From contig JBFLXN010000161.1 of assembly GCA_040755715.1 (NCBI GenBank), positions 1 to 6,052 of the forward strand: 6,052 bases of DNA. Reading direction: 5' to 3'. This document shows positions 1-4,677 of this stretch, in pieces. Origin of the DNA: JBFLXN01 sp040755715 [NCBI: Candidatus Edwardsbacteria bacterium]. GTDB taxonomy: Bacteria; Edwardsbacteria; AC1; JBFLXN01. Each line of letters opens with the position of its first letter. Position 1 is the first letter of the stretch. The notes under the pieces are model-generated. The model worked only from the letters and a program-made list of their open reading frames with translations. It searched no databases and had not been told where the DNA came from. A program made the position numbers and the translations under genes.

Positions 1-53
1 TTTAATAATTTTCGCTCATTTGGTTTTAATTTAACTTGATTTTTTATTTTCAA
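1..53 (-). CDS. N-terminal fragment of a leftward gene, probable insertion-sequence transposase (runs off window)
   Basis: The reading frame starts at a TTG codon (53-51, minus strand) and stays open to the window edge, giving 17 residues: MKIKNQVKLKPNERKLL. It is accepted as a gene because of what precedes it. A full AGGAGGTGG ribosome binding site (67-59) lies seven bases before the TTG, and a consensus promoter lies at 77-105. The pattern of a short basic start, then a beta-like VKL and a polar helix beginning PNERKLL, resembles the start of IS630-type transposases (typically VKLTPEERxxLxxL). Family assignment from 17 residues is inference. Its position supports a mobile element: immediately to the right is a TPR gene that has lost its 5' part, as if the element had inserted there. 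It could instead be some other small DNA-binding protein. That a leftward gene starts here is fairly sure; the identity is not. Confidence 0.55.
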   Translation of the reverse strand, partial: MKIKNQVKLKPNERKLL

Positions 54-54
54 G

Positions 55-82
55 TATACCACCTCCTTTTGGAGGTAGTATA
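55..82 (-). promoter_or_regulatory. Palindrome spanning the -10 box and ribosome binding site
   Basis: On the minus strand the arm TATACTACCTCC (82-71) and the arm GGAGGTGGTATA (66-55) pair over 12 positions with a single mismatch, around a four-A loop (70-67). The first arm contains the -10 box; the second contains the Shine-Dalgarno sequence. The predicted start of transcription falls in the loop. The gene's own mRNA would therefore lack the first arm and keep a free ribosome site, whereas transcripts coming from further upstream would fold and hide it. It may equally be a DNA operator for a repressor. It is not a typical terminator, as no T-run follows it on either strand. Confidence 0.6.
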
Positions 83-105
83 TCATAAATAATTTAATTT
101 GTCAA
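77..105 (-). promoter_or_regulatory. Consensus sigma-70-type promoter of the leftward gene
   Basis: Read on the minus strand there is a perfect -35 box TTGACA (105-100), a 17-base spacer (99-83) and a -10 box TATACT (82-77). The -10 box is preceded by an extended TG at the proper position. Transcription should begin about seven bases downstream, near position 70. That leaves a very short leader of about 17 bases before the TTG start at 53. This is the only promoter in the window that matches consensus at both boxes and in spacing. Confidence 0.8.
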
Positions 106-511
106 GAACTTATGTCATAAAGCACTAAGAGTCTATTTATGTGAGAGTTTGTATCATAAAGCTGATTTATGCTTCATACTCCAGCGGATAGAAGAAGCGG
201 AGGCTTTAAATAATGAAGCTTTGGAAATGGCAGAGAAAGTCAAGAGACAGGAAATCATTTTTGAGAGCAAGATTCTAAGGACTAAAATCATAGCTCAGAA
301 GGACATTGTATTAGCCAGAGAACAGTTGAAGGATATGCTGAAAGAAAGCAAAGAAGAGACACAACTTGCTTCTCTGCATTATGAGCTCTTTAAACTGACA
401 GGTGAGCAAGAGTCCAAAACCAAGGCACTGGAACTTTACCTTAGATTATATGAGAAAACGCCCAATATTCAGTATAAGGAGCGGATTGAAGAGCTGGAAC
501 AGGCGGAGTAA
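98..511 (+). pseudogene. 5'-truncated TPR-protein gene remnant (C-terminal part only)
   Basis: The frame is open from 98 after a TAA at 95-97, but no good start with a ribosome site is present; the first usable start codon is TTG at 149. From about residue YLCESLYHKADLC (codons near 134) to the stop at 509-511 it matches the last 120 or so residues of the next protein without gaps, at roughly two-thirds identity. Shared blocks include QLASLHYELF, LTGEQ, LYEKTP and YKERIEELE. The matched part is the C-terminal TPR-like helices; the preceding 40-residue repeats are missing. The break with its paralogue falls around 106-130, just behind the promoter of the leftward gene. An insertion or deletion there most likely removed the front of the gene. 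Whether a short protein is still made from TTG 149 is doubtful. Confidence 0.75.
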
Positions 512-3337: not shown

Positions 3338-3766
3338 CTATTCCCATTGCTTTTTAATCCACGCTTCTACTCCAATTTTCTTAATCTTCTTGAGATTCTC
3401 TATCTTTGCTTGGTCAAAGGGCCATTTCCCCCAGATTTTGCAGGGGAATTCCTTGCATTCAAAACAGAATGAGAGCTTTTTGCTTTCACAGCATTTACGC
3501 ACTGGACAGCCCTTCCAACCCGACCCAGTTTTACAGGTGTAGGTACAGAAACCGGATTTAGAGAGCCATTCCAACCCTTTGATGAAATTATCAGGGTTGC
3601 ATTCTTCCTTTATCCACCCTTTGAGTTCAGGGCGCTTCTTTATCAATTGTAAGAGTTGTTCAGCAGGCTCCTTTATCCTTCCGGCATGCCAGTCACATTT
3701 GTGGCAATACTCGCCACAATAACTTACCGCCCTTCTCCTTTCGTCCTCATATTGTTGAGTAGACAT
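3338..3766 (-). CDS. DUF3795 cysteine-rich protein (copy next to VOC gene), 142 residues
   Basis: The protein matches the DUF3795 pattern as I know it. It opens with YCGEYCHKCD (C17, C21, C24). A helical linker follows, then a central cysteine group (C74, C78, C87), the pair C92-C93 and the closing C101-x2-C104-x4-C109 of SFCFECKEFPC, then a helical tail ending in AWIKKQW. Twelve cysteines in 142 residues in conserved spacing suggest metal or iron-sulfur binding, but the biochemical function of this family is not known. It is probably cytoplasmic, with no signal peptide. The start ATG (3766) has AAGGAGGT eight bases upstream. It is a diverged paralogue of the protein at 4222-4677, with the flavin-barrel gene between them. 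Confidence 0.85.
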   Translation of the reverse strand: MSTQQYEDERRRAVSYCGEYCHKCDWHAGRIKEPAEQLLQLIKKRPELKGWIKEECNPDNFIKGLEWLSKSGFCTYTCKTGSGWKGCPVRKCCESKKLSFCFECKEFPCKIWGKWPFDQAKIENLKKIKKIGVEAWIKKQWE

Positions 3767-3782
3767 TTTTCATAACCTCCTT

Positions 3783-4229
3783 TTAGCCATTTTTACTAAC
3801 TTTAAATTTTCGCACAAAAAATTCGCCTGCCCTTAAATATTCAACTTCTTTAGGGCATATCTCTATCAAGGTATAGTCAGGGTCGTCCACACTTTTCCAA
3901 TGTCTACTAAAAAAATCGCAATGTCTGGCTATTCTTGCTTTTGTTGTCTTATCTCTAATCAGCCTGGCCATTCCAATGATTCTTATATAAGAGTTTCCAC
4001 CCTTTTTTCTCTCAAGAAACAAACATAGTTCTATCTTAGGATTCTTCTGTATCTGTTTGACCTTTGCGCTTCCAGTATTTGTCATAATCCAGAATCTCTT
4101 ATCAAAATAAATCAGGGTTACAGGTCTAACTCTTGGTTGATTTCCTTCCACGGTGGCTAAAAATACACATTGGAAATCCTTAAAATTTGCCCAGACTTCT
4201 TTTTTAATATTGTCAATCTTATCACTCAT
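3783..4229 (-). CDS. Pyridoxamine 5'-phosphate oxidase-like FMN-binding split-barrel protein, 148 residues
   Basis: This has the split-barrel fold of the PNPOx-like superfamily. Its first strand pair reads FLATVEGNQPRVRPVTLIYFDKRFWIMT (residues 23-50, ATVEGNQPRVRPV being the diagnostic block). A helix SAKVKQIQKNPKIELCLF follows, then strand YIRIIGMARLI, and a C-terminal strand TLIEICPKEVEYL. Relatives bind FMN, F420 or heme and act as small reductases or oxidases; this short form is not the true vitamin B6 enzyme, and its substrate is unknown. I choose ATG 4229 over the TTG one codon upstream because GGAGGT then lies six bases before it rather than three. The start overlaps the end of the upstream DUF3795 gene by eight bases (ATGAGTGA), which suggests translational coupling. 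Confidence 0.88.
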   Translation of the reverse strand: MSDKIDNIKKEVWANFKDFQCVFLATVEGNQPRVRPVTLIYFDKRFWIMTNTGSAKVKQIQKNPKIELCLFLERKKGGNSYIRIIGMARLIRDKTTKARIARHCDFFSRHWKSVDDPDYTLIEICPKEVEYLRAGEFFVRKFKVSKNG

Positions 4230-4677
4230 CAAAGCACCTCCTCATTTTTTGTTCATCAAGCCATTGCTTGATTCCCTTTTCTTTAATTTTCATTAAATTT
4301 TCCACACCATGAAGTTTAATCACGGTAGGGTGGTTAATCAGCATTTTACAAGGGTATTCTTCGCATTCACTGCACAAATCAAGATTTTTGTTTGAACAAC
4401 ATTGCCTAATCTTACAAATATATCCTGCCTTGGGGTCATTAACTAATGCTTTACACCCCGGACATAACCATAATGCTTGTTTGGTCAGAATTTTAATAAT
4501 ATTCTCTCTGATATCCTTGTCTTCAAATAGTCTCTCAAATTCAGTTTCTTTTCTCTTTATTATATCCAAGGCCCTCTGAGCGGTTCTTTGCTTCTTTCCG
4601 GTAAACGAATCGCAATTACGACAATAGAATCCACAAAAGGATACATACTTTTGTTTCTCTTCTTCATAGTTAATCAT
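4222..4677 (-). CDS. DUF3795 cysteine-rich protein (copy next to ParB-like gene), 151 residues
   Basis: This has the same architecture as its paralogue downstream: opening FCGFYCRNCD (C15, C19, C22), central CPGC (C72, C75), C88, the pair C93-C94, and the closing C102-x2-C105-x4-C110 of DLCSECEEYPC, then a helical tail (MKIKEKGIKQWLDEQ). The matching cysteine spacing but different linker sequence points to an old duplication. Metal or iron-sulfur binding is likely; function is unknown. The start ATG (4677) is preceded by AAGGAAAGTAG. The last residues (KMRRCFDE) are encoded by the same bases that form the ribosome site and start codon of the flavin-barrel gene, so the tail's sequence, including C148, may be set by that constraint. 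Confidence 0.85.
   Translation of the reverse strand: MINYEEEKQKYVSFCGFYCRNCDSFTGKKQRTAQRALDIIKRKETEFERLFEDKDIRENIIKILTKQALWLCPGCKALVNDPKAGYICKIRQCCSNKNLDLCSECEEYPCKMLINHPTVIKLHGVENLMKIKEKGIKQWLDEQKMRRCFDE

Follow-up and report, generated by a model that had tools for sequence, protein, structure and literature searches.

The window analysed here, a stretch of 6,052 nucleotides, begins with a leftward control region in which a palindrome covers both the promoter and the ribosome binding site of a gene cut by the window edge. The question that this locus raises is whether such a palindrome may silence transcripts arriving from outside, or has some other role, or none. Fold-back protection is known from a small number of insertion sequences, IS10 and IS50 among them; there the first arm precedes the point where transposase transcription begins and the second is at the translation start, so that only outside transcripts fold. 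We put the probability at roughly 0.73 that an IS630-family insertion sequence would sit in a TPR-protein gene and that the feature would be its 5' control region, with a fold-back block of read-through translation. What computation shows is the sequence itself, the stem as predicted, the end of the element and a complementarity of the arms that many relatives keep although their arm sequences have changed.

The leftward control region

Read leftwards from position 105 to 1, the region consists of TTGACA, 17 nt ending in TGA, TATACT, ACCTCC, AAAA, GGAGGTGGTATAC, TTG and 16 codons. The promoter scan located the -35 hexamer TTGACA at 100-105 and an extended -10 element, TGATATACT, at 77-85 (minus strand), with TG at 85-84, TATACT at 82-77 and a spacer of 17 nt to the -35 hexamer. 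The -35/-10 pair scores 11 of 12 and is accompanied by the TG, and TTGACA-17-TGATATACT is the top-scoring promoter-like site within positions 1-600. Arm 1 of the hairpin, TATACTACCTCC (82-71), comprises the -10 box and an anti-Shine-Dalgarno sequence and ends at the predicted -1; arm 2, GGAGGTGGTATA (66-55), holds the Shine-Dalgarno (SD) sequence AGGAGGT (67-61), the first A of which sits in the loop AAAA (70-67). The TTG start codon at 53-51 was read directly. The initial annotation had described a consensus extended -10 promoter with a TTG start, the -10 box and the SD on opposite arms of a stem of 11 of 12 pairs, and a transcription start near 70 in the four-base loop. Direct reading of the minus strand confirms the arms, the number of pairs and the start codon; the promoter is near consensus, and its geometry also predicts +1 at 70, that is 7 bases past 77.

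Eleven of the 12 positions are Watson-Crick pairs on the minus strand, and the twelfth, 77-60, is a mismatch as DNA and a U-G wobble in the leftward RNA, so that all 12 pairs are possible in RNA. The hairpin has a minimum free energy of -18.3 kcal/mol (z -5.8), and none of 200 shuffles was equally stable. Nevertheless, of 200 first-order Markov versions of the full 6-kb window, 45 contained a palindrome with at least 11 matches, at most one mismatch and a loop of at most 12, so the length by itself proves little, and the case for the window stem rests on its placement and on its relatives, not on its length.

The element's own extended -10 promoter would start transcription at about 70, past arm 1, and the element's own mRNA would then lack arm 1 and leave AGGAGGT exposed. 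An RNA from outside would carry both arms and could form the 12-pair stem that buries the SD, and less transposase would be made from the transcripts of neighbours. What we infer here is where transcription starts, that translation is blocked and that element and host gain from it.

Identity of the cut gene and of its element

The gene runs off the window after 17 codons (1-53, minus strand, TTG included), and the visible part ends before any DDE_3 catalytic domain. The residues following the TTG to the window edge are K I K N Q V K L K P N E R K L L, and Pfam and NCBIfam gave no match in this 17-codon gene start. It resembles the starts of IS630 transposases, such as MTVKKYRVKLTREERNDLL in locus L028. 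The score of the window N-terminus is weak (6.2 bits, E 0.33, over 17 residues only), and it is outscored by 98 of the 813 N-termini from the gathered loci, nearly all of which are IS630 starts.

A terminal profile was made from the termini of 46 relatives, with the window left out. Its best match on both strands of the whole window is at 127 on the minus strand, with 12.0 bits as compared to 5.0 bits for the runner-up. The matching sequence, TAGTGCTTTATGACATAAGTTC (106-127, minus strand), an IS630-relative end, opens with TA, and the distance from the element end to the start codon is 74 nt in the window and mostly 69-82 nt in the relatives. The other end of the element is outside the window.

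On the plus strand, 128-511 holds the 3' fragment of a gene for a TPR protein which is apparently interrupted by the element. The frame from 128 is 65% identical, without gaps over 127 aa, to the TPR protein encoded at 520-1938. The TPR protein matched 66 stretches in genomes, of which a single one, L014 at 20% identity, could be confirmed. An ungapped comparison that keeps the register of the 128 frame finds 8 of 14 residues identical just past 127 and 0 of 14 just before, and no similarity to the TPR paralogue was found upstream of 128. The first four residues past 127 match the paralogue only loosely, so homology locates the edge with an uncertainty of a few codons, and it is the terminal profile, not the homology, that appears to pin the junction to the TA dinucleotide at 126-127. 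From the profile match and the TPR comparison together, this TA, at the stop of the TPR homology, is a putative duplicated target. Judged by these sequence features, the cut gene is probably that of an IS630-family transposase and the element probably lies within the TPR gene.

The short N-terminus had first suggested TnpB (IS605), a suspicion that was dropped once IS630 was found to agree with the L028 start, with the terminal sequence and with the TPR junction. Two TnpB-type loci were used, only in the step that brought out the L028 start, and it is the terminal profile, not the protein, that speaks against TnpB.

Pairing in IS630 relatives

IS630 loci were gathered from genomes of one phylum (inferred to be Desulfobacterota), which gave the majority, and from plasmids and viral contigs. 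The phylum genomes contributed two sets of 30 loci each, taken from longer match lists, and 40 further chosen places, 39 of them from one match list, were added to the discovery loci. The 113 discovery regions, after removal of 15 (one too short and 14 duplicates), left 98 non-redundant ones, the window included. Three loci had been left out earlier, L105 and L116 with the N-terminus not covered and L111 with short upstream sequence, and of the five viral loci L160 was unused, its row repeating that of L159. The pairing test set the 36 nt before the SD against the stretch from the SD to codon 6 and compared the result with dinucleotide shuffles of the same sequence. A first version divided the sequence at a constant -16 and yielded 23 of 48. 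The split at the SD was chosen after the fixed split was seen cutting arms, and the end consensus was written after viewing the discovery sequences, which makes the hold-out set the cleaner test.

Among the discovery loci with a recognisable end, window included, 28 of 47 paired at p<=0.05 and 21 of 47 at p<=0.01, while those lacking such an end gave 6 of 51 and 3 of 51, respectively. The hold-out set started from 30 loci, of which 8 (5 with short upstream sequence, 3 lacking the N-terminus) and then 5 duplicates were removed, leaving 17; it is mainly one clade, and longer upstream sequence was demanded of it. With the same scoring, 12 of the 15 hold-out loci with an end paired at p<=0.05 and 11 of 15 at p<=0.01; of the two with no recognisable end, L164 is strongly paired and L184 is not. 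Combined, 40 of 62 elements with an end (the window included) reach p<=0.05 for pairing between an upstream arm and the SD, start codon or first codons of the same element. Significant pairing is absent in the other 22 of 62, L151 among them, even though its end ranks by eye with those most like that of the window.

As a control, other genes of the gathered loci gave 24 of 141 at p<=0.05 and 12 of 141 at p<=0.01. These genes, unlike the elements, needed an SD matching at least 5 of 6 positions, and they may include other mobile genes; their rate of 17% exceeds the nominal 5%, so the null is not clean. The difference between 40/62 and 24/141 has a Fisher p of 7e-11 when relatedness is ignored.

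In the 11 plasmid loci (L077-L087) pairing is mostly absent, with p<=0.05 only for L080 and L083. The former, an IS630 element on a Bradyrhizobium plasmid and so from another phylum, has a strong stem adjoining the SD (-32.2 kcal/mol with its own arm, reached by 0 of 300 shuffles), hinting at a device wider than one phylum. A separate observation concerns L064 and its relatives L051, L057, L061 and L063, in which the transposase frame ends after 147-170 residues; in L064 there is a run of eight A near the end of the open reading frame, and together with the early frame end this suggests a two-frame layout with programmed frameshifting.

Arm sequences change and still match

MAFFT was applied to the arms of the relatives and misaligned them, and arm swaps were therefore used in place of a covariation table. 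When first arms were swapped among the 47 discovery elements with an end, the energy went from -17.8 kcal/mol for the own arms to -12.2 (sd 0.5) for swapped ones, a cost of about 5.6 kcal/mol. Swaps confined to two clades (n=14 and n=8), each united by N-terminal motifs, never reached the own pairing in 20,000 permutations, and in two looser groups, delimited by crude motif rules and with misassigned rows inside, the own pairing was reached in 0 and 30 of 20,000. The hold-out elements (n=15) behaved in the same way, with -19.9 kcal/mol for own and -13.7 kcal/mol for swapped arms and 0 of 20,000 permutations. The diversity is illustrated by the arm pairs ATGGCGACC/GGTCGCCAT (L051), TTATGGCAACC/GGTTGCCATGG (L052), ATGGCAGC/GCTGCCAT (L060), ATGGCGGG/CCCGCCAT (L095), TATTTCTTCAT/ATGAAGAAATA (L057) and ATTTATTCCCC/GGGGAATAAAT (L161). 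In L180, by eye the nearest analogue of the window, the pair TAATCCTCC/GGAGGATTA again combines a -10 box with an anti-SD.

The expectation that both arms would co-vary was thus borne out in relatives of the family, which carry different but mutually matching arms in the swap tests. That the first arm would be conserved held in part: it is often kept in place with a changed sequence, and the 22 elements that lack significant pairing depart from it. A first arm in the same place with a changed, matching sequence is the pattern expected if RNA pairing is selected, rather than a fixed operator.

This bears directly on the alternative named in the initial annotation, a DNA operator at which the transposase or another protein binds both half-sites and represses the promoter. 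Palindromic operators are common at promoters, and the palindrome in the window overlaps the -10 box and is near-perfect as DNA. An operator needs fixed half-sites and fixed spacing, whereas the gap between the arms of the relatives ranges from 3-4 nt to more than 20 nt, arm 2 often extends into the coding region, and the arm sequences differ even among elements with a shared xPRYRVTL N-terminal motif and similar ends. The single mismatch of the window stem is a G-U pair in the sense RNA, and among mismatches in the significant helices G-U outnumbers A-C by 12 to 4 (p 0.077), as it does over all helices by 16 to 7 (p 0.093); such a lean is as expected of pairing in sense-strand RNA and is not decisive. 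Overall, we consider an operator unlikely.

Two related elements, L098 and L126, have different, fully complementary arms in codons 2-4, CTGTGCAGC/GCTGCACAG and CCGCGCGGC/GCCGCGCGG, respectively. L126 is GC-rich, and its pairing is not significant against its own shuffles. In these two the N-terminal codons of the transposase and the promoter bases seem to change together.

Arm placement and predicted exposure

The placement of arm 1 was followed in 16 discovery elements, the window included, that have a good -10 box and a strong helix. The 5' end of the arm lies 7-16 nt ahead of the predicted +1 in 15 of 16, and the 3' end within 4 nt of it in 13 of 16. Permuted start sites match this alignment in 163 of 5000 cases, which makes it weakly better than permuted; arm end and predicted start site show no correlation from element to element (rho 0.12), and in the seven hold-out rows with a good -10 box the arm-1 ends scatter from -10 to +19 around the predicted +1. 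Arm 1 thus usually begins at the -10 box and ends near the predicted +1, a placement that is typical but loose. Arm 2 of the 40 paired elements lies over the start codon in 24, over the SD only in 8, over both in 4 and over later codons in 4, the window belonging to the SD-only type.

The claim that the ribosome site is hidden in read-through RNA and open in native RNA agrees with fold prediction for the SD and not for the start codon. The predicted unpaired probability of the window SD is 0.17 in the read-through RNA and 0.72 in RNA starting at 70, and the start codon is paired in both, with 0.04 and 0.00. In the native RNA the TTG is held by a weak stem between 55-50 and 39-34 (-3.5 kcal/mol when 40 nt are folded); we judge it too weak to matter. 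For the 28 elements with z<-2 it is the start codon that is less exposed in read-through RNA (0.17 unpaired, native 0.43), with the SD unchanged (0.54 vs 0.53), and the window reverses this trend, its SD opening in native RNA and its TTG staying paired. For the full set of 46 elements tested, the unpaired probability of the start codon is 0.27 in read-through RNA, 0.42 in native RNA and 0.38 in read-through RNA with a shuffled upstream part.

The start sites are predictions only, and if the window's transcript began further upstream the stem would act in the element's own mRNA, as a thermosensor, an sRNA/Hfq switch or a plain translational brake. Helices of some relatives run past the predicted +1, and the IS200 hairpin described in the available text of PMC3196728 occludes a ribosome binding site. 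Against this, the best promoter-like site of 1-600 sets +1 after arm 1, and in the 16 best-defined elements arm 1 is mostly at or before the predicted +1, so that we regard a stem acting in the element's own mRNA as rather improbable. Still more doubtful, to the point of being very improbable, is a functionless chance palindrome between purine- and pyrimidine-rich signals, for which the frequency of such arms in shuffled windows and the unpaired elements with an end could be cited, since the stem is placed exactly on the -10 box and the SD and the own-versus-swapped tests hold in the discovery set, the clades and the hold-out set. Protection against read-through, as first proposed, is supported by the relatives through both the pairing counts and the arm swaps, with the start sites being predicted.

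Comparison with known systems

As in the fold-back-inhibited transposase genes of the IS10 and IS50 kind, a stem is predicted to bury the SD or start codon in read-through RNA, here the SD. The window differs in its transposase family and its sequences, and in that the -10 hexamer itself falls within arm 1 and the SD within arm 2. In IS200, according to the available text of PMC3196728, one stem-loop acts as a terminator for impinging transcripts, and another occludes the site where ribosomes bind. The likeness is confined to this occlusion, since a simple consensus scan found no terminator-like hairpin in 1-600 of the window, whereas IS200 has one against incoming transcripts; the parallel to IS200 drawn in the initial annotation is accordingly loose. 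The parts available of PMC4265352, PMC8450116 and PMC5006887 deal with how IS10, IS50 and ISPpu9 are controlled by antisense RNA, Hfq and leaders, and present none of this layout.

The IS630 relatives (L048-L192) share with the window an end of the type TAGT(A/G)(C/T)C.TGT.A., often an extended -10 box and AGGAGG, and an N-terminus of the type M..KY.VTLT.EER..L, and many have an arm at -10/+1 that pairs with the SD or the start. They differ in that arm sequence and register vary and that most of the paired ones have the start codon, and not just the SD, within arm 2. In the open-licence literature no title or abstract among the matches listed reports a fold-back layout for IS630. The proposed mechanism is of a known kind; what appears new, within the open-licence literature searched, is its occurrence in IS630 and the renewal of the arms.

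The comparative evidence carries the fold-back layout to an IS630 branch, in which arm sequences turn over and the pairing stays. It is tempting to speculate, at about even odds, that this large branch continually renews its read-through protection instead of conserving one hairpin, each lineage re-evolving the segment from -10 to +1 to match its SD, start codon or first codons, with promoter hexamer and N-terminus jointly selected. The window, with its -10 box fused to an anti-SD, could with a similar, evenly balanced chance be one solution of this kind. If confirmed, protection by fold-back would point to convergent selection on transposons to ignore the transcription of their neighbours, and would provide a sequence test for read-through protection applicable to any insertion sequence family.

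Searches for copies and the rest of the window

No copy of the element was found with the 140-nt element end (blastn in phages and plasmids), with palindrome patterns in viral contigs and genome contigs, with the 20-residue start in plasmids, or with the palindrome allowing at most 3 mismatches in 148 genomes. The 20-residue start also drew an empty answer in 297 genomes of the Desulfobacterota-like phylum, one that carries no weight. A degenerate NQVKLKP pattern gave 13 loci in viral contigs, by eye none of them at a transposase-like start, and these were taken as chance matches.

Elsewhere in the window, the intergenic region 2030-2210 contains strong inverted repeats, GCTTCGTT..AACGAAGC, followed by a long stem. 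The fold has a z of only -1.6, no Rfam family matched the region at gathering scores, and it overlaps the start of no long gene, only the edge of small open reading frames. Further along, two DUF3795 proteins (3338-3766 and 4222-4677, minus strand) flank a pyridoxamine-oxidase-like protein (3783-4232). The pair stands within a run of small genes on the same strand, encoding GNAT, VOC, weakly ParB-like and GNAT proteins, and the whole run looks like a collected gene island.
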